Below, piece by piece: positions 11,877 to 38,966 of a stretch of DNA of 64,000 bases (the stretch's first letter is position 1; each line of letters starts with the position of its first letter). The DNA comes from Thuidium tamariscinum (Eukaryota; Streptophyta; Bryopsida; Hypnales; Thuidiaceae). The position numbers and the translations under genes were made by a program. The DNA lies in the NCBI GenBank assembly GCA_947034885.2, contig OX344750.2:11836053-11900052 (forward strand). Reading direction: 5' to 3'. The notes below the pieces were generated by a model. It saw nothing but the letters and a program-made list of their open reading frames with translations, did not search any database and had not been told where the DNA came from.

Positions 11877-12808
11877 AACCCTTAAAGGACTGCAACTATG
11901 TTTCCACCAAAACTACTCCAACATTGTCATTTGTAGGAGAGCTACCAAATTTCAGAAAAAAAAACATTTTTTGACACATGTAACCGTAAGATCTCTTAGT
12001 GCACTAGTTTGAGAAGATGTAGAAAAAATTTCAGAAATTTCTGCCAAGTAGATTGCAAGATATTAGTGTTTGAAGTTACAAAAATCATTTTTTTTCCACT
12101 GCGAAAATCCGGGCAGCTGCACTTCAGAAGGTCACATTTGTATGCAAAAATGTCCAAAATGGTTTCAACTCTTTGGATTTATTCTCCAATTCAAGTTGGC
12201 TATATGCTTGAAAATTTTCATATCATTTGAAATTGTACAACATGTACAAAAAAAATAGTAAGAAGAAAGAAGTAGAGAATGATTCAAAATACAAAAATGG
12301 TAACAATTTATTTATTGAATTGAAAAATGCCAATCCCAATGGTTCAAATGTTGTAATAAACAATCTACACCCAATATTTTTATTTTTTTCAAAAATATTG
12401 AAAATTGAGTAAAATAAAGGACTTCAAAGTTTATTTTAGAGAAGAGAATCCATAACTACCCGCAAATTAAAATTCTTCATAACTTTTGACTCATTAATCC
12501 AAATGGAATGATTCAAAGCTTTACATGTATATATAAATCTATAAAACCAATTTAAGATTTTTATTTCCAAAAAAAGTGATTTTTTTTTATCTGCCCAAAC
12601 TGCCCGAGTTGAGAAACAAACAACGTTTTATGCGATAACTTTTCAACCATGTAGTCAAAAGTCACAAAAATTGTTGGGCTTTGAAGATACTCCTCGTCCA
12701 CACCTTCTATTAAATTTTGGTTCCAAAATATGAAAATATGTAGGCACACGTACCTGCCCAAAATTGCTATGTTGCCAAAAAAGGCATGTTGGTCCTTTAG
12801 GAGTTAAT
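11877..12808 (+). repeat. Dispersed repeat R2 (MITE-like), best preserved copy
   Basis: The left end reads TTAACCCTTAAAGGAC. The right end reads GTCCTTTAGGAGTTAA, nearly its reverse complement, so the copy has short terminal inverted repeats and is about 0.93 kb long. It is noncoding. Diverged copies are at 10430-11495, 51720-52625 and 61730-62095 in the same orientation, and at 15840-16520 and 58568-59640 inverted. A flanking duplication was not resolved. Confidence 0.6.
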
Positions 12809-14650
12809 AAGTTAACAAATTTTCAAAGTAAAGGTTGTAGGAGCCTATAAGTGCAAATTAAAAATCCATTGTAAGAATACTAAATCTTGACATAAGTAGT
12901 AATTAAATGTTGCTTAAACAAAAAAATTGGACAAAAAAACTACACCAAAAATTATGTTTCATAATGATCTATACAAAACTACAACAAAATTGTCCCCGTA
13001 CAAATCCTCCACCCCTTAGTACCATAATGGATCTATTTTAAATGGCCATCAACTCATCATGATAAGCGTTCTTTTTTTGCTTTCCATATTTTACTTTGCT
13101 TAAGGGTCATTTACATGTACTAACAAATGAAACATTGGAAGAAATGATCTTTTGTATCCAATGTAATTATTTATAGCTATCATGTAAGAAAGGGGAATTC
13201 GAAAGTGGAGAATTCATTTTAGCAAGTCACAAGCAAGGCTACAATAGTGAGCTTAGTAAAATGTCTACAAATTATCTTTTTGAGAAACATTTCATCAAAT
13301 GGAACATCTCCATGCCACAAGACCTTGGTAGGCCATGCAATGTAGAGTTATTTTTTTATAGAATTACTTAACTATTTATAAGTATGTATAGCATTGTATA
13401 ACCTAGCAATGGGCCTACCCATACTAGAAAGATATTATATAGTACTAGATACTTAGGAGGGACTTAGGGTGAGCTTCCATGTGAATTGGGCCCGTAGAAC
13501 TTGCCAGGGAGAGCTACAGTGAGAAGTGGGTGATGACATTTCTATGTGGACCTGGTGGGTGGAGAGATATTGAGTAAGAAAAGCACACGTAACGATTCCC
13601 TTGAAGTTTGATCAAGCTTCACCAATGGGCTTGTCCACCATTATCGGTGAAACTTCAAACCCTCCTTCTCCACTCACCAAGTCGGGCAACAATATTCGGT
13701 GGGAGCTTCTTGTCTACTAGCTCTTTTGCTACCAGCCCGCCTCACATAGAAGATGGGCCTTAGGAGTTGACTGTGGGGCGCTATAAGACAATTTTGTTCC
13801 CTACAAGAGTCTTCTTTTCAAGGATGTCCAAAAGATTCCTTCCTCCAGCCTATTTTGACTTGGCTGTTTATTGTTCAGGATCCGTCTCTTTTGCAATCAA
13901 ATCCCTCAATAAATAAATAAATCCCTGCCTTGGTGGTAAACAATGTTATGTGTGGAAATGAAAAGCAAGGAATGGTCATCAATTCAGTTGACTTGCGGTC
14001 ATGAAGAGTAAGTATGAAGTTCGTCTGCAATTGAGGCTTCCTTTCAGTCACCATGATCCAAAAGTAGAGTTCACTTTCCCCATGAGGCCATGACTGTCTA
14101 TCTACCTTTCAGTGTGATTGCTGCATTTCCCCTATCGTGAGTTTCCACCTACAGTACTAATGCAACAACAGTACATGAGCTCTCAATGGGTTGTTTTATT
14201 TTTATTTTTATACTTTTATCTCATTGTTGCCCCTCTTTGCTTTTCCCACCAGTGAGCCAAAGTTGAAACTTGGTTTACAAATTCAGGAGATTCTCCATGT
14301 GCTGGTACTGTACAGTGTACACATGGGCATGACAGACTTCCATTAAAAAAATACTGTAAGGTAGACTGCTCTGAAAGGGACCACTTAAGAGCTGATTGCC
14401 TTTTCAGGGAAGCTGAACTCCTTGAATCAATTTTGAGTAAATTTTCATAGAAAGGAAAATGGAAATGGCATCTAACCCAAGTTGTTTCATCTTTCTTGGA
14501 CCTGTGTAGAGATTAGTTATAAATTTTCAAAGTTCAAATGGAGTGTGCTCTAAAAGTGACCACCTGCTGAAATATACAGCTGTAGTACAATGCAGAAACC
14601 AAAATCTACTAGTGTAGCATGGTCGTTTTTAGAGTAGTCTACCTTACCTC
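12809..14650. other. Intergenic DNA, no gene seen
   Basis: No open frame above 60 codons resembles a protein, and no tRNA or rRNA signature was seen. Confidence 0.5.
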
Positions 14651-14654
14651 TGAT

Positions 14655-14905
14655 TCCATATATGAATTCAGGATTTGCAAAAAAAAATTTGCAAAAAATA
14701 AAAAATTCTAGGGTTTGCTCCTGCGGGGCAATAAGGAGGTCAATTCACTCTGCCCCTTTCAAATTTGGGGCAAATATGAATTCAAAATTTGAAAACAAAA
14801 TTTGTGTGAAAAATAAAAAAAATTACAGCATTTTACCCGAGTGGGCGAGCGAGGGGGTCAGTTCTCCCTGCCCCCTCCATGGGGGAAGGGGAGCGAATCT
14901 CTGCA
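14655..14905. repeat. MITE-like repeat R3, diverged copy
   Basis: It contains CCTCTGATT, TATGAATTCAG and TTTGCAAAAAATAAAAAATT, which recur in the hairpin at 32021-32245. The part with GAGGGGGTCAGTTCTCCCTG resembles the ends of the small element at 44970-45212. Probably one family. Confidence 0.45.
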
Positions 14906-15839
14906 TGCATAAGAGTGTCCGTCCATCATGCAGACACATACTGTAGTTGGGAGGTCAGGTGGGTCAATGGCTGGATTCTATGTTGTCTTCAATCAAGAGG
15001 CCGGGCTTGCTTTACAGGTAGCCCTTATTCTAGGGTTGTTTGTTGAACGTCTTGTCCAACTGGGAAGGGTCTCTATTGCCTCTGAGTTTTAATGTATAGT
15101 TTTATCAGTTTCGCTCTAGCACAAAATTTGTTGCTTGGACTTGTAAGAAGAAGACATTACAGTGGAAACACCCAAAACTGTCCAAATAAGGAATTCAGCA
15201 TAGTTGGAGGCAACATTTTCTAAAAATGATATTTTTCCAGTATTAGCGAGTGAAAATCATGAATATTCAAAAAAAAAATAGATTTTTTGGATACAGTATG
15301 TAATTTCTACAAATTTTCAAAGTGTTGGTTCCCTAGACTTGTGGAACCGTCCTGTAGGTGCCTCCAAAATTGAACCCTGCGAAAATCAACACTCATCCAA
15401 CCAAATTTTCCTATGTGTCCTTCAATTGTGTCAGCAAATTACAATCATACATGTGGTGAACACATTAAGGGAAGTCTACTGACGCATTTGGGTGAATCTA
15501 TAATCCACTACAACAAATAGGTGCGGGAATGGGTGTTTTGCCCTTAGATGTTTTTTGGGAGATTAGAAGATTGTTTCAGGCCTGTTCCCAATGCTATGAA
15601 CAATCAGAATAAAATATAATAAAATAATAAAATATAAATATTTTTTTAATAATATTTTTTTAATTTTTTAAATATTATTATCTAACATGGCAATCTCTCG
15701 ACCATGTCAGATCGCAAATGTGCTAGTTCCCAATAGCTTTCCTATAATTGGGAACTCGCAGTCTTCTAAACTGCAGAAAAAACATCTAATGGCAAAATTC
15801 CTTATTCTTAGAACAAAAAACATCATATTCCAAACAAAT
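14906..15839. other. Intergenic DNA, no gene seen
   Basis: AT-rich, with short runs such as AATATAAATATTTTTTTAAT near 15620-15660. No feature can be supported. Confidence 0.5.
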
Positions 15840-16520
15840 ATTAACCCCTAAAGCCTTGAACAACATTTTTTGAGATTATAAAATTTTTGGGCAGCTCACT
15901 ACAGATATAGTTTTTATTTTTTTTCTTTGAAATTTTGATACAATGTGTGCCCAAGGAGTAGCTTTAAGGCCCAACAATTTTCATAACTTTTGACTTCATG
16001 GTTAAAAAATTATGGCAAGATATGTTGTTTTCTTTACTCGGCGGGCATCCTAGGCAATTGAAAAAACTTCTGCAAAAAAACTTTTTCTTAAAAAGTAAAA
16101 TTTTGAATTGGTTCTTCAGATTTATACAAACATGGGAAGCTTTGAATCAATCCATTCCAATCAATGAGTCAAAAAATATGAAGATTTTGAGTTTGGGGTA
16201 GTTTGCGGCCAATTACAGAATCTCTACAGTACAAAAAAAGTTTGAAATTCTTCATTTAATTCAATTTTATATATTTTTGGAAAAAAATAAAAACAGAAGG
16301 TGTAGATTGTTTATTACAACATTTTAACCATTGGGATTGAAAATTTTCAATTCCATGAATAAAATGTTCACAATTTAGTATTTTGGCTCATTTTTTACTT
16401 CTTTCTACTTACTTATTTTTTCCTATGTGTTGTACAATTCCAAATGGTTTGAAATATTTTGAGAATGTAGCCAACTTGTATTGAAGTATGAATTCAAAGG
16501 ATAACCGCCATTTTGAATTT
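15840..16520 (-). repeat. Inverted partial copy of repeat R2
   Basis: It begins with TTAACCCCTAAAGCC and then carries, in reverse, the R2 phrases for GATTGTTTATTACAACATTT and TTGTACAATTCCAAATG. Noncoding. It lies directly left of giant element 1. Confidence 0.5.
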
Positions 16521-16551
16521 TTTTTCACACAAATGTGAAACCTATATTTAA

Positions 16552-16596
16552 CTAATTATGGACAATTGCATGAATTATGGACAAATTCATAGTCCA
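16552..16596 (+). repeat. Left terminal inverted repeat of element 1, with internal duplication
   Basis: CTAATTATGGACAA is followed by a second near-copy, AATTATGGACAAATTCATAG. The left end therefore holds two tandem versions of the terminal motif and the right end holds one. Confidence 0.75.
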
Positions 16597-17376
16597 TAGC
16601 CACTTGAGAACGTGGAAAAGACGCTTGAAATGATGGAAAAGTGTTGGCAGCCCACCCACACCTTGTTGAGAATAGGCAGTTGCATAAGAAAGAAGAGGAT
16701 TGTTGAATGTTGGACCGAGTATCAGAAGCAGTGCCTATAACCGTGCACCCATCCCGTGGCCAATGACATGTATAGGCTGGCAGCCGATAAGAGAGCAAAG
16801 TAAAGTGCGCAAGAAGAGTAGAACAGGACAACGAGCATGACAGGTAGAGAATTTCCTGCACCGTTTGTGCACTGAAGATGAAACAGTTGCAACATGGTCC
16901 CCATAGGAGATTCAGATAAATATGTCAAGAAAGTACATAAACTCGTAGCAAGTGAGAAATGCAAGGACCTAACAACCGAAGAGGACAAAGTATCGCCTAA
17001 GAGAGTAACGTCCTCCGGCTAGCCCTGTCGGCAGCCAGCCGACAAATACGGGAAATGTGATCTGCCTAGTCATAAGACTTCTAGTGCCATCCTATGAAAT
17101 ATAAAGGCCCACCGTAAAATAACATCAAGTCCCACCGAAGAAGATAAGAATGCACATCCTGAAATGAGTACAAATTGAGGACATGCACGTAATCATCTTG
17201 AACTGAACATTCTGTTGACGAACCGCGCGATTGTGATGCGGCCAAGCCCGTGGTATCGGCTAACAGCCGACACCTGCATGGAGAAGACGAATCAGTGTTG
17301 CAATGTGCTGATGACAGAACTGGAGGCCCCGAATGTTGTATCGGCTGGCAGCCGATAGGTCCGAGTCGATGTATCC
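16597..17376. other. Left subterminal region of element 1, no gene seen
   Basis: It holds palindrome copies at 16771, 17026, 17254 and 17339, downstream of the transposase-like stop codon. Open frames here show no known domain. Confidence 0.5.
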
Positions 17377-20300
17377 TTACTCGTCTCCGGCATCGTCTGC
17401 ATCTTTGTCGAGAGTTGCGCTCGCGGCCTCTAGATTCGCAATAGCAGCAACAACGGATGCCTCCGGGATGACATGAGATGTGGGAGGTCCTTTTTTCGCA
17501 TGCGAGGGCATTCTGTGTGAGTACAAGACAATGTTGACATGGACCATCTACGGAAGACAGAGTTCCTTGTGCCATCTTCGAGTCCAGCACTCCCTCGCAA
17601 TAAGCGCCTTGGACTCCCTTTTTGCTTTCATGGGAATCCACCACTCGATTTTAAAGTTTCCATAGGTTGGCCCCAGAGTCATGTTGACACATTCGAGTAC
17701 CCATCCCAGCCAGACAGGCAAGTGGTTGTTGTGACATGGTCGACAGAGCACAAAGTCTCCGAGCAGAACATCCCTGAATGGATTGAATCTCAATCTTGGC
17801 CTGTCCTTGGCAGGTCTGCAGTATAGAGTGGGGTCCCCTTCGTCCTCCGGAGTGGTGTCTATTGAATAATTTTTGTGTGCCCCCTTGTCTATTGAGGTGG
17901 ATGCGTGATCTCTTGTCCAGTCAGAGAGCGGCCATAATCCTTCTTGAAGCAGTGCAGGAGTTTGTGGCAGCGGTGAATTGATCTCTGCTTGAATTCTTTC
18001 CCAGTAAGCCACACAGCCTGTCATTTCCTGTGCGTATCGTCTGTCTCTGGCCATTCCGGATTTCCAGAATTCAATGAATTTAGCGATTATGTTTTTGATG
18101 AATGTCTATTTCTCATTGCACTCTGTGGCCCTCGCGACTTCCTTTTCCGCGTTTCTCTTTCTTGGATTAATGTCTACATTCCCCCAGAGTGCCTTGAAAG
18201 GCACAGGTCGAGGGTCCCCCAGAGGAATGTTTGGTTGACCATTTTCATCCGCTGTCCACATTTTGACGGGTGGTCCAGGAGGGAGCCATGAAGAATCCGT
18301 GGCCCTGACCTTGTACCTCATGACCGGCCATCCCCGATCGACCCCATCTTCTACGACGTAGAACTTGAATAGGTGTTTATCTCCAAGCCCTATGATTTTG
18401 TTAACCCCTTCATGCATGATGGAATCCTCTGAAGTATGATTTGAAGTCCACCACTTCTTGCACGAACTCCGGAATGAAGGCTACCGTTTTCTGTGAGTCC
18501 ATGAACGCCTTCATGAGATCCGCCAGAACGTAAGTGTTCTTCCTTTTGATGAGTTTTGAGAGGTAACTGAAGTGCGCGTCAATGTCCTCGTGCGTATGTC
18601 CGACAATGAGGAATCCTACGGAAACTTCCTTGAATATGCGCCTGGCAGTGAGCAATGAGCAAAAAGCCATGAGGAATCTATTCTTGTTGTCCTTCGTGGA
18701 ATTGTCGAGTTGCAAGAAGAGTTTTTTGGGCAGTGGGACTTGAGGTCGTCCTGGTGTTGGTGCGTCTGTGACCTTGTCCGAGGCCTGCGGGATTGACAAG
18801 CTGCATCTGGATTTTCCATGCAGCAGAGCCTCGAAGAAGCTGTTGAGCGGTGGAGTGGAGAAGAGTATCTTTGACTCCCTTACAGGAGGTAGTTCTAGGG
18901 CCCTGAGTACCCTGCAGATGGATGAAATAGTGAAATTTGAATCCCCCGGCCAGAGTGATGTTGAGTAATGCACGTATGCGCCATCTCCATGTGTGAGCAT
19001 TCTAGTACATGAGATTGGAATTTGTCCTAGTCCTGCGGTGGCCTTTGTGATGCGCTGCATCCTGGGAATGGCAGTCTTTATAGTGTCCATTTTGTCATGA
19101 ATAATGCAGAGGAACTCTGATGGATTCTGCACCGACTGCGCGGTCCATCCGCTGTATACATTTCTACAAGCGCGCTGGTAATTGAGATGTCTCTCTCTGT
19201 CGTCGACGAGTGCCTACCACTCATCACAACCTCTGGGATACTTTGCAATGAACTCTACGAGGAAGTCACACTCTGTGCATTTTGAGAAATTGCTCCCTAC
19301 TGCCTTGACCTCTACGTTTTTGAAATGAGCATTTCGAAGTCGGCTAATAGCAGACTGGGATACCGGCTGCATATTGCATATTCCATTGACTTGAAGAACA
19401 TGACTACATGGATGAGTATCCATGTAAGACGATAGAGTTGTATCGGCTGGCAGCCGACAGAACTGTGAATGCCGTCCTACAGAAAGGAAATATCTATGGC
19501 TCCTAGATTCTAAGTGTAGCCTTGATTGTATCGGCTGGCAGCCGACAGAGGGACATTTATACTGTAGACGAGGAAGTAGATGTTGGACTTACATAATTGA
19601 CTTGTTCGCGTATGTGATCCCAATTCATTGCAGAGGGTAGGACCTTGAGATTGTCGACGCGTTTATTCCCAACCATTCTGAACTCGTTTGGCATCTTGTC
19701 TGCATTCTCGTCGATGATCGTTTTGAGTGTTGCTTGAGCTTGTATTGTTTGTGGCCGTGGGCGTCGAGCCCCCGCATTTCCATGCGACCCGTTGACGGAT
19801 CCTCCGGCGGCCGCAGCCTTGTAAACATGATAGGCCGACCTGGATACCCCGTTAATGATATACCATGCGTTCTCGCAGACGTCTCTATTAGCAAGAGTGA
19901 TGAATTTTTTTCCTGGGATAATCCCTGCATGAAGTTGACTCTACACCGCATACGCTACCTCCCTCCTACTCTCGAATGTGCAAGCGAAGAACTTTCGTCG
20001 TATAGACCTGGTGTCCTCCCAGAGAAAGGTCTGGCAGCATCTGAGCTTACAGCACTTTTGTGAGCTGACCTTATGTACCTCCGCCTCTGAGGTCTTGATT
20101 TGAAGCCTAGACTGGCTCTCGAGATCCTTGGGAATGACCCTTCTGTGCACAGAGCGGTATGGATTCCTCGGTACCCCCTACATTCCGTCATCGTCTGACT
20201 CCCTCAACAGAGCAGCCTGTGAGCAAAGCGTGACAATTTCTGATAGTAGCCTTCCCCCCTCCAATCTTGTGTGTGTGAGCTTCCAACGCATGGTTGTCAT

Positions 20301-21524
20301 TTGCAGTTCGTGACTGTCCGATACGAACATGACCCCAACATCCGTGTCACCCAGGACGCCATCATCGCAAGCCTCATCTGGTAGGCAGACTTGGATCATG
20401 GCTCTTCCCAGTACCGAAAAGTCGTCATTGAGAAGTTGACAGTATTGATTTCTCCAGAGCGGTCTATCTGGGATTGGAAGTCCATCTTGCACTCCAACCG
20501 GATCGGCATTGTCACCCCTCTGAGTACCATCTCTGAACGCATCCGAATGATCCATGCTGTCAACAACACTTGCGTCGGACGCGCCAGTGCTAGAGGTGCT
20601 GTAACCATGAACATTGCACTAGTCGTGTGCAGACCCGCGGCTGTCATCGTCTGACGAATAGAGTCTATCATCTCGCTCGTCTTTGTTTGATGCAGTCGGA
20701 ATTACCCGCTGTGATCCTGGATCACTGAGTTCTACCTACACATTGTTCGAACTTCCACCACTCTCACAGTTCCCATCGACCTGAGGTTGCATGAAATTGG
20801 TCGCAGGTGCTCCTATCGGCTGGCAGCCGACAACGTTGGCCATGGGGACAGATGTCTGGATTGGTCTGACCTTGTAACCACTCTAGAGTATTTTGTATCC
20901 TACACAACGTTTAAGTGTGATGAAATCCGGAATCTCACAATAGGCAGTGTGATTCTTGAAATCATCGACGACGTACAAGAGCTTCACAACGAGGAAGAAG
21001 CTGTGTGGAATGCGGAAGCCTCCCCAGTACCCCTTCGGAGAGTACTCTACAATTGTCCCTACACCAGCATAGAACAGAGTGTCGCCCAGAGTCTGGAGAA
21101 GTGAGACATCCATATTGACAGTGAGTGACAAAAATTGTTGTATGGGTTTCTCATCAGTGAGCACTTGTATTGGTTGCTGGCCGACAGCAGCAGCAAAAGA
21201 CCCTTCCGCCTCTGCGTGGGGATAAACGTTGCCTGCCTCCCACACGATTGAGCTTCCCGGGCAGTGTCTGAGGAAAACTATGTCTCCCTCCGGAAACGGA
21301 AGAGGCATATCGAGGTTGTTTGGAACATCTAGGACATGAACGCGTACGAGGTATGGATCGCGGCTGACCACCCTTTCTACGACCGCCCTTCCAGCGTAGT
21401 ATAATCCTTCCAGTGTGAGAGCCACAACAACTCCCTTGTGTAGTTTTAGTCTTCCTGACCCGCCATTTCTTGTGAATGCCTCAATAGGACTGGCACCCGA
21501 GGTCCATTCATCAGAGCCACTCAT
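17377..21524 (-). CDS. DUF7869-type transposase-like protein, interrupted by eight TAG codons and one frameshift
   Basis: One frame runs from ATG 21524 to 19593 (donor GTAAGT). After an intron, a second exon runs from about 19.4 kb to TAA at 17377-17379, for about 1,300 codons in all. In-frame TAG codons lie at 20883, 20736, 20619, 20178, 19941, 19214, 18106 and 17548 (lowest base given). One extra base near 18412-18425 shifts the frame. The middle has a Cys-rich CCKLRCC region, then LANRDVCENAWYIINGVSRS. The second exon carries LQLDNSTKDNKNRF and VGHTHEDIDAHF, hallmarks of the RNase H-like domain I recall as DUF7869, a probable DDE-type core. The C-terminal part, with LGDFVLCRPC and VWLGWVLE, looks like a small SH3/BAH-like fold. 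By analogy it is the element's transposase. Under the standard code it is a pseudogene, but the residue pattern is otherwise intact. Confidence 0.72.
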
Positions 21525-23124
21525 GATTCGAAATCGGGGTGAGAACCCAGAATGTGGGAATTTCTGCTTCCGTCAAACCTGTGATGACCTTATCGGCTGG
21601 CAGCCGATACGTTTGTGTATCAAATGCTTCACGACCTAGCAGATACGGGAATCGGTATCGGCTGGTAGCTGATACCATTGTCCGTACGGTCAAGCACAGG
21701 GGCAGGACCGTACAACTAGAACTCCGGGGATCATGCAAGAAGCTAGATTTTTCAATTCCTATGATCTACGCACTGTCCACAGATGCTCGGACCAGGCTGA
21801 ATCAAGAAATGGAAGCACAAACGCAACCAAATAGGAAATCAAGAACCACTGACAGGCATCTAATTCTCGAAAATGCAATTGAAATCCTACTGCAATTGAA
21901 ATCCTACTGCATTTCCTACGTAAGCCTGAACGCCAAATAACATCTGTCCTAGAGCGCTTCCTGAACCCGAGGACTACTGAATACCTAAGCTGTGGACTGG
22001 GTTGAGGTCTACTAAATTCCCGCTCTAACATTGCATCCTTCCTAAACAACAAGCCACTGCAATTCCCTCACGGTTCTTGAATGCTCTGAGTGTGTGTGTG
22101 GGGGAAATGAAAATGGAGAATGAAGTCCTCCAAGATCAGATCCTAGGTGAGCATGCTTGTGACTGAACTTGGCGCCTGAAATTTGAATCTGAAAGAGGAT
22201 GAAGTTGTGGTGATTGCAAGAGAGACAAGTCCGTGGATCAGGAGATCGTGGGTGGAAACGTACGCATCATCACAATGAGTGTTCGTCACTTGCATGTACC
22301 TCGCTGGATGTGGAGTACACGGTAGCGGATGGAAACCGGGCGATGGATGAAATCTTTGGATGAAAAGTGGCAATGGATGAAATCATAGGATGAACGGACT
22401 CGGTTTGTTATGATTGCGCCCCTCGGCTAGTAGCCGAGGGTATACCCCCAGACCACTTTCATTTTCTCTCATTTTCCATTTGCGCTCCTGCTCTCACTCT
22501 CCCTCTCTCCCTCCCTCTCCCTCTTGCCTTCCAGCTTGCAGCTGACACCGCGACGCAGAGCGGAGGAGCAACCAATAGGTTTTTCTGGGCAGCCGACAAA
22601 GAAGGAGTGCGTGGCAGCCGTTTTCTTCAGCAGCCGACAAGTTTTTCTGAGCAGCCGACAAGAATCAGTCCTTCGGCGATGGCATCCTCCGGTTTGGCGA
22701 ATGACAAGTACTTTTCTAAACCTGTATCGGCTGCCAACCGATACATTATTATTTCTTGATTATTTTCAGTACAGCCATTGAGAGTGTGAGGCACTTGTGG
22801 GTTGCTGTATCGGTTGGCAGCCAACAGACATGGGAGCACTCAGGTAACTCCTGAGCTCATGCGATGTCGGTTGGCAGCCGATATAAATCTGGGACAGTGG
22901 TCATACGATGTTCTATAAATGACTTCTGAAGGTAGGGTTTAGGGACTGTGGCTGTATCGGCTGGCAGCCGATACACTAGATGCACAAAGTGGGGTTTCAT
23001 AGTGACAACTTACTAAGAATTGCAATGTATTGTTTTGTAGGAAACCGACTCTCCTAGCCCGAATTCTAGGTGAGCAAATCCCGAACTCTGGGATTTTGGG
23101 TGACGGGTTTCCACCACGAGCAAC
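21525..23124. promoter_or_regulatory. Divergent promoter region of element 1, rich in palindromes
   Basis: This stretch separates the minus-strand transposase-like gene from the plus-strand ParB-like gene and holds the densest group of palindromes (seven recognisable copies). The variant hairpin CCCTCGGCTAGTAGCCGAGGG lies at 22420-22440. Four half sites with CAGCCGACA or GGCAGCCG lie between about 22587 and 22660. A pyrimidine-rich tract at about 22455-22530 resembles the Y-patch of plant core promoters. An intron acceptor (TTTTGTAG) near 23040 suggests a 5' UTR intron for the plus-strand gene. Confidence 0.55.
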
Positions 23125-26100
23125 ATGGCGAGGGATCGAGGCCATCCAGGAATGGGGCCTGTGTTGGAGGCAGACCCCCGACAAAAAGTGGACATCGCAT
23201 GCTCCTTCAAGTTGAAGGGGAACATGACCCCTAGCAAGGGAAGTGTGTTGTCCGTCAGGGCTGTTGGCGAGTCCGTGCATGTAATGATATGCTTGATGCC
23301 ATTGGCAAGCACGGACGGAGTCCCCGACTATTTCGCCGTGGAGTTGCCGGTGAACAAGTGTACGGAGGAGGTCTGTGGACAGAAGTCCATGTCCATGGGC
23401 ATGACATTTTCAAACAACACACCATCAACTACAGAGGAGCTCATCCAGGGGTGGGAGTGCCTGAAGCATGAGCGCGATGAGCATAATGCGTTGGTCGCTC
23501 GTGAGCTGGAGAAGGGGAAGAAGAAGGTACCCGCGGAGAGGAAGCTGGTGGCGGCGACAGTGGTTGAGGTCGCTGAAGCCGATCTTAAGGAGCCAACGTC
23601 CCCGACCAAACCAAAGCGGAGAGGAAAGGGCAAGGATGACCCGACGAAGCCGCTCAAGCTCACACTGGACGAAGCACTCCGACGTGGAAATCACCTCACC
23701 ACGAAGACCAAGGAGAACGAGGTGAACGCTATTTACCAGGCGCTGGAGACGGGCCTCCTGCATACAAGAAGCAGCGTCTTCCGGGGGTCATTCACTCGGA
23801 CAAGCTCCACATTGCACCGGACGAGCTCAAGTACCGGAAGATTGCGAAGGACCAGCTCACCGACTTGGACAGGTAATTGGAAGATCACTTGCATCGTTTG
23901 TTAATCAAAGTCATTTGATTTTTTGTATCGGTTGGCAGCCGACATGTGTAACTAGTCATTAATGTTTTGGCCTTCTGTCATTTCATGTGAAGACCATGTA
24001 TAAGGGATATGGGTCCATCAGGAAGAAGCCGGAAATACATAGGGTTCCATTGAAGCGGGCTCCATTGCCCAAGGACAAAGGGTTGGACGCAGTGATGGAC
24101 AAGTGTCCCGGGCAGGAGGAACTCACTGTTGTCAACGGCATCTCAATGCTGTGGTGGAAGGCGCCAAATGTGCACTGGTACATCATTGGCGGGCAACACA
24201 CGGTGACAGCCTGCCGAGAACTGGCTGAGCAGTATCCCGACGGCTTTGAGGCCAAAACCAACCTCCTAGAGTTTGAGGTGATTCCGGTGTTTAGTAGAGA
24301 CCCGAACACACTCGTCAGAGTCTCCAATGCCCTCAATCTCAACATCGCTGAGAAGGTGGCGAAGGAGAACTTCAGATCCTGCGCAGAGATGGGGAGAGCG
24401 GCGTGGGTGAAGGCGGGATGCCCAGAGCCGCATCGTGGAGGAGGCAAGCCGACACTAGCATTCGAGGTATTACCCACGCTTATTTGCATTGTTATGCTAT
24501 TTGCTGAATACGTTATGTATCGGCTGCCAGCCGATACCTGTATGCTATATACTAAGTATTGTGGTTGAACTCTGGCAGGCTACGAAGCTGAAGGTGATGG
24601 CTCACTTCGTGGAGGAAAAGGTGTCCTCCAAGTTGCCACTCATCTTCATCAAGGAGAACACCTGGGTACTGTGGACGGAGGTGTTCGATGCGTGGGAGAA
24701 CGGGGAACTCATTGGCGACGACGGGACTGTGCCCAATCTCCTGGTCAACTGGAAACCCCTCACACACATCACCAAAATGGATCTCATGCCAACGCTGGGG
24801 CTTCGTGATTCAGATCTGTGCGAGTTGGGGCGGGAGATTGTTGCCCTCCGCGTCACCATCAAAAACACCGCCAAGGCAAAGTCCTCAGAGAAGATCACTC
24901 TCTTCGACTGGTGCAAGGACAAGAAGCTCGATCGGATCGTCATGAACGAGATCATGTGGACCAGGAAGAAGTACCTTCTTCCTTGCAAGGACGCAGGCTG
25001 GACCCCATATTCGGATGAGGATTGGAAGGAGCTGGCTGACAAGGAGGGGTACTTAGCGGCCGTAGTTCGGAATGTCTAGAAGGACATGATGAAGTTCACG
25101 GACGCAAGCAACTAGTTGAAGGGGCGAGTCAACCCCATGAATCCAACCACGGATGGAAAGGCGCCGGGGGTCTTCTTCACGACTTTGGCAAGCTACGTCA
25201 AAGTCAACTTGCCTACCACGGTAGGCAAGTCAAGCGATCTGCAATACGAATGCCATGTCGGGGAGAGTATTCCAGAGGTGGTGGCATTCATTCGTCAATC
25301 CAAGGGGACGATGGCACTGGAACCCGAGGACAAGAAATTCCTCGTCCTATTCGGGTATACAAATATGGGGGAACCTCTTGGGGTGACCAGGAATGACCTG
25401 CTCGACCTGTCGTTGGCAGCAGAAATTTCGGACGGGGCAGATGATGAAGATGGCGACCCTTACATCCCGTTGCCAATGCTCCTCATCGGGAACTCGCGGT
25501 TCCGGGATTCAGTCGCCTCGACAGCGCACTCATCCTCGACCGACTGGTACTACCATGCGGTGTACTACCAGCCATCTCCCCGGGGAGGCTTTCAGAAGGC
25601 CGAGATTGAGTCCAGGCCTCTGGTCACTCTCTCCTTGACCTTCTCGAAGCCCGAGGACAGGCTCAGTGTTTTTCCAGTGTTCAAGCGCTTTACTGGGATC
25701 AACAAGGCGCTCGACTTGTTTAATTTCGACGTCGAGGGGGAGGTCGACAGGAATGGCGGGATGTGCGGGGTTGGCCATGGACTGCTCGAGAAACTCATGC
25801 TACCCACCTTCAAAGCCAAGGATGCCATCGTCATCAACATCTAGGGAGGCGGTAACATCACGGAGATCGCTCTAGTACGTTTTCTTATCCCATCCTCACA
25901 CTTGCATTGTTCTCAGGAAGTCACTTTCTGTCAGCTGGCAGCCGATACAATAGATGGCTGACTTGGATTCCATGGCTTTGCAGAGGAATGGACGGGCTGT
26001 CATGGAGTTCGTTCGGGAGGAGGAGGGATTGGAGAAGGCCAAGGAACGTGTGAGGGGAATGAACCTCCTCTCCACGGATTCCCTGAGACCTACTCAGGTG

Positions 26101-26852
26101 ACTCTGGCGGTCACAGACCAGGAGGGGCAGACGGCACAGGCGCAATTTCCTCGGCAACCGCTGCCGTTGTCTACCCTCGTTCTGCCCCAGGCTCCGGGGG
26201 TGCCGCTCAAACTCAGCGGACGCAGGGTCAGTCTCAAGAGCAACCACCACTTGTGACGGTTGTGACTAACTCAAACACAGAGAGCTCCCCGGAACCAACA
26301 CTCATTCGAAGGGGACGGCAACCATGTCCTTCGTCTCCGAGGCCCTCTCTTAATCCTTCCCCGACTCAAGATCTCGACCGCCCCATGCTGCTCCCACACA
26401 GAAACTCCTCGCTCGCAATGGTCGTGGATCTGCGCGCTGAGCCACCGTCGGAGGAGATAAGCAGGCTCCCTCTGCCTCAAGTGGTCGTCGTGGCGACGGA
26501 GCCTCAGGTGGGAGTAACTACACTTGGGCGACCGGCGACTATGGCCGACATTCGTATCGGCGGCCAACCGATACCCATGGAGACTTCTCCGCCGGAACCA
26601 AGACGGGGAAGAAGCAAGGGGGCACCGCTGGAAAAGGAGTCGGAGTCGGCGGACTCGCACCGCTCAACTCGGATCTTCTTCAAGCGGAAACGATCAAATG
26701 AGAAGGACGGCGGCGCGACGGCACGGACGCAGGACTTCCCGAATGAAGAGATGTCTCCTGTCCGATCTCAAAAGAGGACTCAGACTAGAGGTTCATAGGC
26801 AATAGACATGCTCCACGATGTTTGTGGAGTATCATACATAGTTCGTTCATAA
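23125..26852 (+). CDS. ParB/Srx-like domain protein, several exons, with in-frame TAG codons and frameshifts
   Basis: Probable exons are 23125-23872, about 23993-24466, 24579-25874 and 25954-26852. The last two joins are in phase, but the first junction is uncertain. Exon 2 carries IIGGQHTVTACREL, resembling the G-x-H-R-x-x-A box of ParB and sulfiredoxin-like folds, but with Thr in place of Arg. The rest of the protein is not recognised. It has a Lys-rich linker in exon 1 and a Ser/Pro/Arg-rich tail with the basic stretch FFKRKRSNEK. In-frame TAG codons lie at 25077, 25113 and 25842, and one at 26796 is followed 17 codons later by TAA (26850-26852). One-base shifts are inferred near 23745 (YKKQRLPGV continues in another frame) and near 26135. 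Palindromes sit in all three introns. It may bind them, but that is inference. Confidence 0.6.
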
Positions 26853-26997
26853 GTAGAACTGCCTAGCTCAGACTCGTGCGTAGACATGTCAGTAGGAGCC
26901 GTTATTTGGGTAGACTAGACTTGCTCTCGACTATGTCGGCTGCCAACCGATATAGTGCTGAAATGTTTTATCGGCTGCTAGCCGATATAGTACACAA

Positions 26998-27927
26998 ATG
27001 TTTTGTCATCTATCTAAGTTCATAGCATCTCATGTTCTATGTATTTCGTGTGGCAATGCAGATGATGACTATCACAAGTCTGACAATTCCTCCGACACCG
27101 TATCTGAAGCTGGGAATCAGAATGTTCAGACAGAAACGGAAGACAGACCACGGACTCCCGACAATGCTGGCCCTACTCAAGTAGCGACTCCGAAGTTGTT
27201 TCTTTTCCTTGAAGTTCAGGGAACTCTACTTTTCTATGAGCCACTCATTGTCAAAGGAAAGAGTATGACTCAGAGGTCGACAGTCAGAGACCGACCAGGT
27301 CTCCGGGAGTTCATCCTGTTCTGTAAGGGTCAAGACATTGTAATTGTCTACTGGTCGATCTTACCCAAGAACACTCTCGAGCAGCGCCTTCATAACCTTA
27401 GATGGAAGGCGCCGGAGATCGGAGAGGATTACCTGGCCTTTGGACAGGAGTTCTGTGACGAGAATACTTATCGAGACCCTCAGAATGCATCGCGACCAAT
27501 TTTTCTGAAGCGTCTCGTGAGAATTCTCGGAGCATCCTCCTTGTACGATAATGGCGCCACGATCAACAACTCATTGATCGTGGACTCAGAGCCATATAGG
27601 AACGTCTTGAATCTGTCGTATAGTGCGATTCATCCGCCCCCCATCACCATGTACTCAGAGAAATCACTTAAGGCAGGGAAACTACCATTTCTCCAAGCGA
27701 CCATGATCCCGTTCATTGAACGGCTCTTGTCTTCGGGACTCACGGTCCCACAGTTCTGTGAGAGGAACTCGTCCACTGGGCTTGCACGATGTATGCCGGG
27801 AACCCCTATGCATAATCAGTACGTGAATGTGACACCGCAGTATCAGAAGGGATTCGAGGTGCCATATTCACAGGAGGAGCTAAAGGCCTTGGGAATTGCG
27901 TAGCCCACGCGACCGGACGGAGGAGGC
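26998..27927 (+). CDS. FCP1/HAD-like phosphatase domain, first copy
   Basis: The frame opens at 26998, although a GCAG acceptor near 27060 may mark the true exon start. It runs to TAG at 27901, with a donor (GGC|GTAGTG) at 27928 in phase. The domain follows the plant FCP1-like family: a nucleophile region FLFLEVQGTLLF, then RPGLREFILFC, a long middle, and LIVDSEPYRNVLN with AIHPPP. In that family the first motif is usually LDVNGLL or LDLDETL. Here the first Asp is Glu, so phosphatase activity is doubtful. If the TAG is passed, this exon joins the second FCP1-like exon at 28368 in the same phase, giving one gene with two domains. The residues EPYRNVLN and the C-terminal tail match the family well. 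Confidence 0.62.
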
Positions 27928-28367
27928 GTAGTGTATCGGCTGCCAGCCGACACACTCTTGTATACATTGTACATATTCTCTGTAGATACAGCACGGATAG
28001 ACTAAATCTTCTGTGGACATTAATTTCTTCTGTATGGATTAAACATTTTTTTGTAATCAAGACATTATAGTTACATTTTTTCTAAAGCGTGCGCATGGCT
28101 CACTCTCAAAGCATTCCAATGTTTCCTTTGAGAGTTTCATCATTAGATCTTGGACTTTGGAATCGACTGATTGCAATAATGTAGGGGCAGGCACTCACTC
28201 ATCTCTACAATCTATCTACCACATGTCTCTTTCTCAACAATTAATTCTTCCTGCTGTATTGGGTCAGGCAACAGTATTGGCTGCCAGCCGATCCCTACTG
28301 CATGCGCTTCTTTCATCGGATGCTTATGTTGTGGAATTATGTAACCACTAACTTATCTTCTGTTCAG

Positions 28368-29018
28368 GAGTCCAACGTTGAGCATACACAGTCCTTCAAG
28401 AAATGTGTGGTTCTAGGAGTCACGGGACTACTTTGTTATCTCGACCCGAATATCAAGGTGGACAAGTCAGACCCACACAGAAACGTCATTAAAAGGCCAG
28501 GGCTAGTTCATATGTTCATGACATTGTTTCAAAAGTTTCACGTAGGAATTTGGTCAAGGTTGCCAATACTTCAGCTTAGGCCTCTGCTTGCGCACTTGCT
28601 TCCAAAACATATCAGAGACAACCTAGCATTCGTTTATAGCAGAGAGTACTGTGAAGATAGCCTCAAGTTCCCGTGGTGCTACAAAATGCTCTCAATACTC
28701 CATACTAAGAGACCATCCAGGATGACATGCTTCACGGACCAAGTGCTCATCGTCGATGTGTGCCCGCTTGCGCTCAGGAGGACGCCAGATACGGCGTGCT
28801 ATATTCCGAGACCATTCAACGGAGATCTCAATTTCCCCAACACTAGTAGAGTTATTCCAAACATTTCAAATGATATTATTCCATTCATTTATCCCATGCA
28901 CCAATATCAGTCAGTCTCAGAATACATCAAAGGCGCACAGAGACCGGGACAATTGCACTATGAGGTGGCACAATCAATCAAGTATGGCAAGCCGAATTGG
29001 CAGGGGATATTCTGGTGA
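28368..29018 (+). CDS. FCP1/HAD-like domain, second copy (exon or separate gene)
   Basis: The exon starts after a good acceptor (TTCTGTTCAG|GAG) and ends at TGA 29016-29018. It shows VVLGVTGLLCYL where family members have LDVNGLL, so the catalytic Asp is Gly. KRPGLVHMFMTLFQ and VGIWSRLP follow (family: RPfLddFL and VGvWSSR), then LIVDVCPLALRRTP and AIL-type downstream positions. It looks like a catalytically dead HAD fold. It is in phase with the exon ending at 27927, and the intron between them holds palindromes at 27934 and 28275. Another palindrome starts 15 bp after the stop. Confidence 0.6.
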   Translation, partial: ESNVEHTQSFKKCVVLGVTGLLCYLDPNIKVDKSDPHRNVIKRPGLVHMFMTLFQKFHVGIWSRLPILQLRPLLAHLLPKHIRDNLAFVYSREYCEDSLKFPWCYKMLSILHTKRPSRMTCFTDQVLIVDVCPLALRRTPDTACYIPRPFNGDLNFPNTSRVIPNISNDIIPFIYPMHQYQSVSEYIKGAQRPGQLHYEVAQSIKYGKPNWQGIFW

Positions 29019-29604
29019 TTCACCCTACATCGTGTCGGCCGCCAGCCGATACAACGTCACTGGAATCGGGGAGGCTGCAAGACCTTCATCTCTCGTACCT
29101 TTTTTGAGAAATAGGAACAACTGATTTCAGAGCCAGTCCTATCGAGTCCATTGCCTCTTCACTGCAAGACCTACTCTCTGGAGTTTTCGGGGGGGGGGGG
29201 ATATCGGCTGCCTGCTGATACTCCCGATTTTATTACCTGGATCGGATGGACTAGAGTTTAGGGTTTAAGGTCGACAATTTGTCGCGCTTCATCTTACATG
29301 TGAATGCCGTAGCCACTTGTCACTTGACGCACTTAGGACACTTTCATAGGTCTAGGTGCTCTAGTGTATGATGTTAGGAATCGGCTACCAGTATCAAGCG
29401 CCAGTCGATACTTTGTCACAAATCAGGACACAACAGACGTGTTCATTTAATAAAAAAATTTCATAAACTATTACCTCTGAACTCTTTTATGGGCCAGGTG
29501 TTTTGATACTTTGGTTTCTTTAGTGGTTGCAGCCATTTTGGTTCATTGCTTGTGGCACACAAAACTATGCATTCGACTATATCGGCTGACGGCCGATTTA
29601 TTTC

Positions 29605-29630
29605 TGGACTATGGATTTGTCCATAATTAG
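29605..29630 (-). repeat. Right terminal inverted repeat of element 1
   Basis: Read on the minus strand it is CTAATTATGGACAA followed by ATCCATAGTCCA, matching the left end. The last palindrome copy (29580-29598) lies just inside it. Confidence 0.75.
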
Positions 29631-31506
29631 TTAAATATTAGTTGTGACCTTGTTAAGTGCAGTTGCCTGGATTTTCACAGGGATAAAAAAACAATTTTTG
29701 TCAATTCAAATGCTTATATCTTGTAATCTACAACAGTTTGGATTTTTTACTTGAGTAGATTTTAAAGCCACTTTCACCATTGAAGGATGCTAAGGACATT
29801 TTTGTGTAAATTTTTAAATGATCAACCACACTTTGTAGTTTGTGCTTACTAAAGAATGGATGATTTTGTACAATTTTTGTGTACAATTTTATCAATGCTA
29901 TTAATATCCGTATAATTATATTAAATTTCAGACATTTTAGTTGTCTTTTGATTTAATATTGATAAATTTATTAAAAATGAAAAATTGTTCACCATCCAAA
30001 ATATTTCAAAACTTTGAATTTCACTTCCTAAGACATTAATTTTGATATTCAAAATGATTTCTTTTAAAAATTAAAAAAAAACTCACAAAATGAAGTTTCT
30101 CAACTATAGTTTTTAAGTACTCTACTTTTGAAAATTTTCTTTAAATGGAGCATTTTAGTAAAGTTTGAAATTGGGAATCTTTAATAATGATTTAAAATTT
30201 CAAGTGACATGGAAATTTTCTTTAACCATGGTGTTCTACACTATAATCTACTCTTAATTTGAGTATTTCAGAATTTTTTAATATGATTTTTCTTCAAAAA
30301 TTCATAGTAATTTGAAATTTTAACCTGAGATTTTAGTGAACAAGTTTGAAAATCTTATAAACAAATAAAACCAAACTAATCCATTTATAAAAATGAGACT
30401 TACAAAACACAAAGTGAAGGATTTTCAAGTTTTGATTATATAGTCACCTCCTTTGTTCACCATGGGATAAAAACAAGTAGCTATACTACAAGAGGCATTG
30501 TAGAACTAATTTGATTCTTAAAGTAGCTTATATAGATGCATGAATTCCTCCACCCTTTTATATAATGGAAGGCATAGGAATCTTTCTACAATAGAAATAT
30601 AACAAAAATGTATTTTTGTTACAATGGCCCCCTTTATTGAACATTAGCAAGATTAACTTCCATTCAAGATGTTCTACATTGAGAAGAGCTTCATTCTTGA
30701 AAAGCAAAGGGGCCCGTGCTATAAAATTCAAGAATGTTATATACACATAATAGTGAAATTAGATTGCTTCACACTAATTTCTTGACATTTGACACTATAT
30801 AAATATTTTCACTTATTGTACAAGAATGCAAAGCTTTTCAATTAGATACTATTGTAATTGAGATTCATGAACCTCCATGTGTGCAAATGAAAATATTTAA
30901 AAGAAAATTTGTTTACTTTGACTGCTTTTAAAGTAACTCTTTTGATGTAATGGAACCTAATTGTTAAGGTTGGAGTGAACTGGCCCCTTACTTGGCCACT
31001 CCAAGTAATATTAGGGGTGCAAGTAAAGCAAAAAGCTCCCTGTTTTGTGCTTAGACCATCCCCACTGCAGCTCAGAATTTGGCTCAAACTAGGTATTTGG
31101 TCGGGTCAGCCAACTATCTGTACCCCACCCCACGCAAAATAAGACTCAAAATATGGCCAGGCGTGGCCAAATTTACTGGGCAGACGGAAAAATAATGAGT
31201 TTTACCCAGGGGCTGGAAGGGAATTTGACTGCACTTTTGACCCCAAAATCAAGGTATAGACCCTACTGACCTTCCAATTTCAATTTTTTTTTTCAAAAAT
31301 GAAATGCTTACAAGCAATTTCATGTACCAAAATGAGACAATTCTTATCTAAAAAAAAAGAATTCATAGTTTCTTTTATCCCACATGGATTGGGACCCCTC
31401 CTTCCACCCCAAAAGGATGTAGAAAGTTTCACTTTTAATGGAAATTCATGCCTCCTACAATCCCTATGAAGTGTATGTAGGAAGAAGTGAGTATGCAATG
31501 GAGCAC
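29631..31506. other. AT-rich DNA right of element 1, no gene seen
   Basis: No supported coding region. Long A/T runs and short degenerate frames only. A possible small repeat with TTGTTAAGGTTGGAGTGAACTG lies near 30961-31000, similar to a phrase at 32118. Confidence 0.5.
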
Positions 31507-35984: not shown

Positions 35985-38966
35985 ATGAAAGCAGTAAGTG
36001 TTATTTCCACATCACATCCAAACTGAATACTAACCTGTTTTGTTTGTGCAGTTTCAAGTGAAGAACTAGTGGGAGCAATGGGAGGGGGGAGGACACAATG
36101 GGAACCCTAGTACAGGCTACAAGAGGATGGGAAAGTGGAATGCAAGTTCTGCAAAACGAAGATTAGTTACCGCAAGGATCGCTTGCTTTTCCACTTGGGT
36201 TATAGACGAAATGACACCCTCCCCGGAGTGAGAATGTGCAACAAGGCCAGTGCAGCAGTGAAGGCTATGTTTTTCAATTGTGGGGGGAATGTTCCTACGG
36301 TCTCCGAAGACGAAGAGGAACATGATGTGGAAGTGACATCACCGTCATCGAATCCAACGAGGGTGGTACGTGATCAAGAATTACCCAATGCTTCAATCTC
36401 AATTAGTGGAGGGGGAGGAAATACTTTGGGCCAAAATTCTCAAGTTCGATCATCAGAGGCGCCTGTCCCTTCTTCGACCCATAGTCGACCGCTGAGGCAA
36501 TTATCCGTACAAGAAGGGATGGACACATCCAAAAAGCAAGTACTAGACAAGAAGTGGGCAAAGTTTTTCTACGAAGCAAATATCCCATTCAATGTGGTGA
36601 GACACCCCGCTTTTGTGGATGCCGTGAAATCAACCTCCGAGTCCAGAGTTCTTTACAAACCTCCACCTTACAATGCCATACGTACGAAGCTCATGACATC
36701 AACAAAGGAGGAAGTGGCTGCACTGGTAGCGGAGAAGACAAGGGGGCCTATCCACAAGTACGGTGTCACTATATGTTCTGACGGATGGGACAATGTCAGC
36801 CATCGGCCATTGATCAATGTAATGTTGTCGTGCACGAGTGGAGAAGTATTTTTGGGATCGGTGGACACTACAGGCGAAAGCAAAGACGCTGTTTATGTGG
36901 CTAATCGCATGATCGATTACATTGACGCGGTGGGGGGACAGAATGTGGTGCAAGTTTGTACGGACAATGCGCCAAACATGCGTTTGGCTGGTACTCAAAT
37001 TACTCGCGAATTCCCTCACCTATATTTCCAAGGTTGTTCCGCGCATGCACTTGACCTTCTACTTGAAGATTGGGGCAAGCAACTTTGGGTGGTCAAAATG
37101 GTGAAGAAAGCAAAATCAATCGTGAAATTCATTCACACGCATCACATGCCACTCGCCATTTTCCGACGACATTCTCCTAACCTCATGTTGAAGAATCCCA
37201 TTGAGACACGTTTTGCGACCATGTTCTTCATGATCGAGCATTTGGCCGAGGTCAAGGAAGCCGTGGAATCTACAGTCCATGATCCGCAGTGGAACGAATA
37301 TGTGAGGTCCTCAAACGCTGCAATACACAATAAGGCAGAAAAGGTTCGACGTAGGGTTCGAAAGGACGAGTTCTGGAGGAGGTGTCTCAACTTTGTGCAT
37401 ATGGTAGAGCCTGTGTTGGTGGCTCTTCGAGAGTTTGATGGAAAACATCCGGTCATGGGCAAAGCATGGATCGTAATGAAGAAGCTAGAAAAGCATGTTT
37501 TGGCTTTGAGGAATCGACCATTTTCATTGGAGGCAAATTATGCGGACCGTGCTGAATACGCGTTTTACGAACGATGGGATTTGATGAAGACTGATTTGCA
37601 CTACGCAGCTGCCCTGCTCAATCCATTCCTCCTTGATGAAATTATACTAATAGACGATAACGAGGCAAAGGAGGCCATTCTTAGAGTACTACGCAAATTG
37701 GCAGTTGGAGGGTTGGGATATGCAGCCGCTTTGTTTGAGTACCAATCCTTTCGAGACCGCCGAGGCATGTTCGCTGGACTTCCCGATGTGAATACTTTGA
37801 ATTTGGAGCCGCATGAATGGTGGGATCTTCTCGGAGCCGCTGCTCATACGCTTGCACCTATTACAAGAAGGATCCTCGCACAAGTATGTTCCGCATCATC
37901 ATGCGAACGCAATTGGAGCATGTATTCATTTGTCCACAGCAAGTCTCGCAACAGATTGACATCTGAGCGCGCGGAGGAATTGGTTTACATTTATACCAAT
38001 TAGAGGACTCTCAGGGAAAGGGGTGCGGCGGATGCAGCACGATGGTACACTGAGAACATGTTGTCCGAAGATTCCATGACAACCGAATCAGATGGCTTGG
38101 ATCGTGGTTCGGTTATGTCAGACGCTAACAACGATGACTCAGACGACAGTTCCAATGGCGATGATGATCCACCATTTCGGCCTTTGGGTGAAAGGCAAGA
38201 AAGGGGTCCCCTAATTGACGAGTCCGTATTTGACTTTGATGGCGCGGATAATGATGGAAATGACCACGGGGGAGATGAGGATGGAAATGACAACGGGGGA
38301 AATGATGGCAGTCCGTCATGGATGCCACGTACATCGATTGCGGGGTCAAGTGGTGGAAATCAAAACGAAGGGGTTGAAGCCCCACCTTCGCCGGTTATAG
38401 GGCCGATTGAAGAAGAAATGCGTACCCGGAGACATGAACATGTCGTTGTGGTAGAAAGACAAGGCGAAGATGAGGTCGTTGCCACAGATCCCCGAGTGGC
38501 GCGGAACACTCGTAGCCACAGATCCCCCATTGGTGTCGAGATAGACTTTCGCACATTGCTTCGAGACACGATCGGCGTGCGACCACAAGCGCCTAGCTTG
38601 GATGATCCACCCGTCCAAATTTCAGCACGGCCTTCATCTTCTAGAGTCCGCCCCAACCAAGAAACTCCATCAGTCGGTACACGATTGGCCGGTCTCTTCC
38701 CAACTCTAAATATGACCGAGCGAAGGAATGCACCTCCATCCTCAGAACAACCTGTTGCACCGCCTACACGCACTACTAATCGACGCCCGCGGCCACGTGA
38801 AGAAAGCCCTACCAATGTGTTCTTCTACTCACTCGAATGGAACAAAAAGATTTACATATATTTATTTCAAAAAGGAGTTAGTACAAAATTCAGTGACGCA
38901 AAGTTCATGGACTATACTGTGGTAAAAGCAAGTACTAAGGTACGTCTACGATTACATTGCCACTAA
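35985..38966 (+). CDS. hAT transposase (BED-like finger, DUF659, C-terminal dimerisation), with two in-frame TAG codons
   Basis: The open frame is certain from 36111 to 38000. It starts with a zinc-finger-like region (VECKFC..HLGY..C). The DUF659 catalytic part follows (ICSDGWDN, VCTDNAPNM, CSAHALDLLLEDW), then the hAT dimerisation region (WWDLLGAAA, SCERNWSMYSFVHSKSRN). TAG at 38001-38003 interrupts it, yet the same frame runs on through RTLRERGAADAARW into an acidic Asp/Asn/Gly-rich tail to 38966. Upstream, TAG at 36108-36110 cuts the frame after WEP. One way to avoid it is splicing from ATG AAA GCA (35985-35993, donor GTAAGT) to an acceptor at CCCTAG (36110), which keeps phase. This is inference. 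The protein would mobilise element 2 by cutting at its CAGGGTTG ends. Confidence 0.85.

Follow-up and report, generated by a model that had tools for sequence, protein, structure and literature searches.

In-frame TAG codons in a DNA transposon of the moss Thuidium tamariscinum as the likely outcome of methylation-linked C-to-T decay

Introduction

In wheat, transposons carry transitions at CG and CHG sites (H being A, C or T) above those at CHH sites, in parallel with cytosine methylation (PMC2996936). In the moss Physcomitrella, CHG methylation depends on a chromomethylase (CMT), and the passages drawn on here distinguish separate CG, CHG and CHH enzymes and split CHG into CWG (W being A or T) and CCG (PMC6453930). 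Here we analyse a window of 64,000 nucleotides from the moss Thuidium tamariscinum (contig OX344750.2, positions 11,836,053 to 11,900,052), which holds a DNA transposon with eleven in-frame TAG codons in its transposase-like gene on the minus strand and a second gene on the plus strand. With a probability of about 0.96, we read this element as a plant DNA transposon of a multi-copy family, dead in this copy, with TAGs that arose by methylation-linked C-to-T decay; such a copy would presumably be silent.

The moss element shares with the wheat transposons an excess of transitions in which CG and CHG stand above CHH, read in wheat as a footprint of cytosine methylation. The wheat study, in the parts considered here, compared two orthologous regions with exons excluded, whereas our comparison is between genomic copies, with in-frame stops and the mutation spectrum as its sole readout. 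The enzyme classes of Physcomitrella fit the sequence contexts used below, although they belong to the methylation system of another organism and the passages concerned hold no mutation analysis.

An open-access literature search found no paper mentioning DUF7869, the domain of the transposase-like gene, and none combining most of the terms in-frame TAG, transposon, stop codon readthrough, plant and CHG. The Kyakuja, Dileera and Zisupton (KDZ) transposons are large. Like the present element they are eukaryotic DNA transposons; the moss element is marked by a DUF7869 gene and 4-bp target duplications, and KDZ enters this comparison by its description only.

Were the TAGs read as an amino acid, this would be a case of UAG reassignment bound up with a nuclear plant transposon. 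The analysis settles this tempting claim as ordinary: combined CG and CHG decay tends to leave TAG-only stops in a plant transposon, and methylation-linked decay of such transposons is a known phenomenon. Screens for stop-codon reassignment that rely on a bias in stop type should treat transposons with caution.

Genomic copies and scoring

The genome searched for copies comprised 363 Mb in 19 contigs. The transposase region gave 35 matches spanning essentially the full query, the window counted, among the best 40 of 85 candidates scored. The compared set consisted of the window and 20 other copies, and 15 of the 35 near-full matches, the window again counted, lay outside the 20 fetched. Three copies with part-length, poor alignment (L016, L017 and L027, at 0.81-0.84 identity) were retained in the per-site counts at the eleven TAG sites and excluded from the spectrum, stop, indel and neutrality counts. 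The spectrum, stop and neutrality counts accordingly cover 18 sequences, namely the window and 17 well-aligned copies; the spectrum and stop counts skip any change lying in a locally disturbed stretch, one with more than 4 differences nearby.

Ancestral codons of the TAG stops

All eleven TAGs reported by the earlier note, with no in-frame TAA or TGA, were found in their frames when the window sequence was checked (eight on the minus strand and three on the plus strand, Table 1). Since the alternative frames over these stretches hold mostly mixed stop types, the TAG-bearing frames are best taken as degraded reading frames. That they belong to real genes follows from a match of the minus-strand exon 2 to the Pfam family DUF7869 (PF25273, E 2.2e-37) and from its counterparts in other copies, which form one uninterrupted open frame of 737 codons in L018 and 735 in L022.

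Aligning the genomic copies and scoring each TAG site, as the earlier note had proposed, gave 220 cells for the 20 other copies at the eleven sites, divided into CAG or TGG (190), TAG (16), CAA (6) and other or gapped (8), a result that favours deamination. Because the other copies carry CAG or TGG in 190 cells, the stops of the window are, on this comparison, derived. The majority codon is CAG at seven sites and TGG at four (20883, 25077, 25113 and 25842). The CAA cells occur at four of the seven CAG sites, as opposite-strand deamination of CAG yields CAA.

Every one of the eleven changes is a C-to-T change at a CAG/CTG (CHG) trinucleotide on one strand or the other; in seven of them CAG became TAG. 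For the TGG sites, in the order given above, a C stands directly before the codon in 18, 17, 17 and 14 of the 18 sequences, and since C precedes TGG, the middle G of the codon faces a cytosine in CAG. The earlier suggestion that CAG codons became TAG through CHG-linked deamination therefore holds for the type of change, with which the spectrum of the copies also agrees, and fails for the source codon at four sites, which were TGG and not CAG.

Mutation spectrum

Private changes were summed over the 18 sequences and expressed per site. C>T and G>A changes made up 963 of 1255 (77%). The private C-to-T rate was 0.358 in CG (347/970), 0.330 in CWG, that is CAG/CTG (237/719), 0.239 in CCG (67/280) and 0.118 in CHH (312/2646), with CCA the lowest context at 0.047 (16/337). 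The C-to-T excess thus ranks by plant methylation contexts, and both strands are affected. The window copy itself has private transitions at 26 CG, 22 CWG, 6 CCG and 26 CHH sites.

A second repeat family was scored at window positions 62097-63000, with 10 sequences of about 904 bases (the window and nine copies) from 41 matches listed. Its counts are small, with 104 C>T/G>A among 156 private changes, and its spectrum is CG 26/60, CWG 11/22, CCG 10/22 and CHH 50/283. This spectrum is similar, and the decay process is thus not peculiar to the transposon.

Plants methylate their transposons, and after insertion this copy would most likely have been methylated at CG and CHG sites and to a lesser degree at CHH sites. 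Its 5-methylcytosines would then deaminate to T, and decay at CHG would turn CAG and C-preceded TGG into TAG.

Ordinary methylation decay is not the only process that could enrich C-to-T changes. A mutagenic genome defence aimed at the element, either like repeat-induced point mutation (RIP) or driven by a deaminase, would suit the 77% share of C>T/G>A among private changes and the fact that CHH too lies well above the other substitution classes; but the strands are about equally affected (468 C>T, 495 G>A), the contexts track plant methylation classes, and the similarity of the second repeat family, for all its smaller counts, speaks against an aimed process, so that we regard such a defence as improbable. 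Deamination confined to CHG with CpG sites protected, suggested by a window copy that lacks TGA while CGA codons persist, has next to no chance against near-equal CG and CWG rates, the window's own private CG transitions and ten CGA>TGA changes in the other copies; the same rates and CGA>TGA changes contradict the earlier statement that CpG decay is absent here.

Stop codon composition

One C-to-T change on either strand makes stops from four codons only, CAG, CAA, CGA and TGG, and the genes of the element contain 41, 25, 18 and 42 of these, respectively, with 21 of the TGG codons standing after C. A CAG codon is always a CHG site, and in a C-preceded TGG the middle G is paired with a CHG cytosine. 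CHG decay therefore leads to TAG; because both kinds of site turn into TAG, decay at CG and CHG can leave a TAG-only run. TAG dominates without any recoding because CAA belongs to CHH, which changes slowly, these genes hold fewer CGA codons than any of the other three, and a TGG-to-TGA change requires a change in CCA, the slowest context.

The rates, with the window's changes included in them, and the codon content predict a stop mix of 70% TAG, 23% TGA and 7% TAA. The window copy has 11 TAG and no TGA or TAA, and the 17 other well-aligned copies have 54 TAG, 10 TGA and 8 TAA; of the 83 stop cells in these 18 sequences, 76 are of the four C-to-T types. In a genome search with the exon 2 protein, the matches at 79% identity or above contain 12 TAG, 3 TGA and 2 TAA.

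Coding decay and past selection

An indel was counted as private when at least 15 of the 17 other copies differed from the window. The inferred exons of the window copy hold five private indels that break the frame, their lengths not being multiples of three (18411, 23182, 23762, 23851 and 26200), and two private in-frame losses (18987 and 25146). The TGA at 18410 had been attributed to a one-base frameshift; the adjoining insertion is in fact 4 bases long and private to the window copy.

In the two fast contexts, private C>T changes strike synonymous, missense and nonsense sites about equally often: at 0.327 (65/199), 0.316 (72/228) and 0.310 (18/58) in CWG, and at 0.368 (106/288), 0.353 (138/391) and 0.353 (6/17) in CG. 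Private transitions overall comprised 305 synonymous, 415 missense and 34 nonsense changes; those in two or three sequences numbered 125, 141 and 12, and those in at least four sequences 92, 26 and 3. Between private transitions and those in at least four sequences, the missense to synonymous proportion differs with P 4e-13 and the nonsense to synonymous proportion with P 0.04. We read these counts as suggesting purifying selection in propagating lineages and near-neutral decay of single copies.

Shared stops and the recoding alternative

Several points weigh against decay of the window copy as the whole account. The probability of eleven TAGs out of eleven is 0.02 at the predicted 70%, so that the window taken alone lies somewhat beyond prediction. 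Some TAGs are shared, 20736 and 20619 with four other copies each, 19941 with three and 25077 with two; L009, the sister of the window copy in the tree (support 0.87), also has TAG 20619, and L023 and L026, grouped weakly (0.54), share TAG 20736 and 25077. A few stops may therefore have been inherited through a duplication. Synonymous and other rates are unlike in CHH (97/685 synonymous, 110/1111 missense, 9/80 nonsense) and in CCG (5/33 synonymous, 45/163 missense, nonsense sites absent). Finally, methylation as the cause is itself deduced from the spectrum.

The shared TAGs are mostly scattered over the copy tree, and such scattered recurrence is as expected at hypermutable sites. At the 75% TAG share of the other copies, the probability of eleven out of eleven is 0.04, and the window does not stand far apart from them in TAG share (Fisher P 0.11). 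With 17 sequences having stops, the window included, the chance of at least one all-TAG sequence with at least seven stops is about 0.5; L024 is likewise all-TAG, at 7 of 7 stops.

The earlier note had alternatively proposed that UAG is read as an amino acid, glutamine fitting the contexts, when the genes of the element are expressed. For this speak the uniformity of the eleven stops and the frames free of TAA and TGA between them, and the equal conservation of TAG 26796 and TAA 26850 (15 of 20 other copies each) leaves room for a longer frame. The copies decide otherwise. The sites are mostly CAG or TGG elsewhere, with Trp at 4 of 11, so that a single decoder would have to insert Gln at some of them and Trp at others, and TAG, held in 16 of the 220 cells, is not kept across copies in alternation with CAG and CAA alone. 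Among the 2306 codon positions scored, 105 of them without clear majority, not one has TAG as its majority codon, 18 of the 72 stops in other copies are TAA or TGA, and the window copy carries its five frame-breaking indels. None of the 4 genome matches (at most 2 mismatches) to a tRNA-Gln anticodon-arm pattern had a CTA anticodon, all being CTG, in a search that was not a full tRNA scan; a scan of the window with bacterial settings found no tRNA genes. UAG recoding, whether to glutamine or to another residue, is thus very unlikely for the window copy, and we give it almost no weight as an explanation of these stops.

Element structure and genes

The element is a DNA transposon with terminal inverted repeats, because four features agree: its inverted arms (16539-16571 and 29611-29643), the end pattern, the ends of the matching rows, and the 4-bp target duplications. 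A pattern built from both element ends matches in the window only at 16539 and at 29617-29643, and 36 of 42 other match rows terminate within a few bases of 29643. Identical ends were found in all 6 other copies read. Target duplications of 4 bp were present in all 7 copies read, the window included, although one of the six other copies shows its duplication only when shifted by one base; the duplications of these six differ from the window's GTGA. The features are collected in Table 1; exon limits of the transposase-like gene were set by visual inspection of open frames and of ends that resemble splice sites.

Table 1. Coordinates of the transposon, its flanks and its gene frames in the window
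Feature	Coordinates	Strand	Remarks
Whole DNA transposon	16539..29643	none	13,105 bp; terminal inverted repeats of about 27-33 bp
Left target-site duplication GTGA	16535..16538	none	element flank
Right target-site duplication GTGA	29644..29647	none	element flank
Transposase-like gene, exon 1 frame	19593..21524	-	five in-frame TAG: 20883 (Trp site), 20736, 20619, 20178, 19941 (Gln sites)
Transposase-like gene, exon 2 with DUF7869	17377..19430	-	TAG 19214, 18106, 17548 (Gln sites); frame-breaking insertion 18411; end TAA 17377
Plus-strand gene, exon 1 (inferred)	23125..23872	+	frame-breaking indels 23182, 23762, 23851
Plus-strand gene, exon 2	23987..24466	+	holds the "ParB-like" IIGGQHTV motif; open in window copy
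Plus-strand gene, exon 3 (inferred)	24580..25875	+	in-frame TAG 25077, 25113, 25842 (Trp sites with preceding C)
Plus-strand gene, last exon frame	26253..26798	+	downstream of 26200 indel; probable normal end TAG 26796

The closing TAA of the transposase-like frame, noted earlier, is borne out by TAA at that position in all 20 other copies. For the plus-strand gene, a read-on past TAG 26796 to TAA 26850 had been suggested; the TAA is present, but 26796 is taken as the probable normal end of the gene. Besides the copies with TAG, 26796 is gapped in 2 and shows other triplets in 3; besides those with TAA, 26850 is gapped in 3, partly gapped in 1 and GAA in 1. With TAG in 15 of the 20 other copies, 26796 is not private decay of the window copy, and conservation by itself favours neither end over the other.

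The plus-strand protein had no match at E 1 in a Pfam search or in a PDB sequence search, and its ParB label is tentative. A genomic relative matches phrog_723, annotated "ParB-like", weakly (E 0.097), and a fold model was too poor to use, with a predicted local distance difference test (pLDDT) score of 38. Open frames elsewhere in the genome (L041 9-1208 and L042 20-898) share the IIGGQHTV region with the plus-strand protein at about 30-37% identity and are possibly a distinct intact family.

The palindrome TATCGGCTGSCAGCCGATA (19 bp) has 24 near-copies with at most 3 mismatches in the window, at 16771-29598, against a chance expectation of 0.01; all 24 fall within the transposon, several of them in inferred introns. 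It is conceivable, though we consider it unlikely, that the element is a large plant transposon of a type not yet described, 13.1 kb long, with a DUF7869 gene and a second gene whose GGQHTV motif recalls ParB and whose protein might bind the TATCGGCTGSCAGCCGATA near-copies as parS-like sites during transposition.

Also inside the transposon, a frame at 28302-29018 has an NLI-interacting-factor-like phosphatase domain (Pfam NIF, E 6.3e-7), possibly a third element gene or a captured host gene.

Neighbouring sequences

A long imperfect inverted repeat at 12132-16538, with arms 12132-12395 and 16275-16538 that are 80% complementary, adjoins the left end of the transposon and is possibly another, neighbouring element. 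At 36069-38817 lies a hAT-type transposase (DUF659, Dimer_Tnp_hAT). Of the best 40 of 449 candidates, 39 are further copies of it at 99-100% identity, and its family was probably active recently. It was considered as a second case of TAG stops and rejected, the scored copies being, at this identity, too young to show decay. The window also contains a frame with a PMR5N domain, which is typical of plants.

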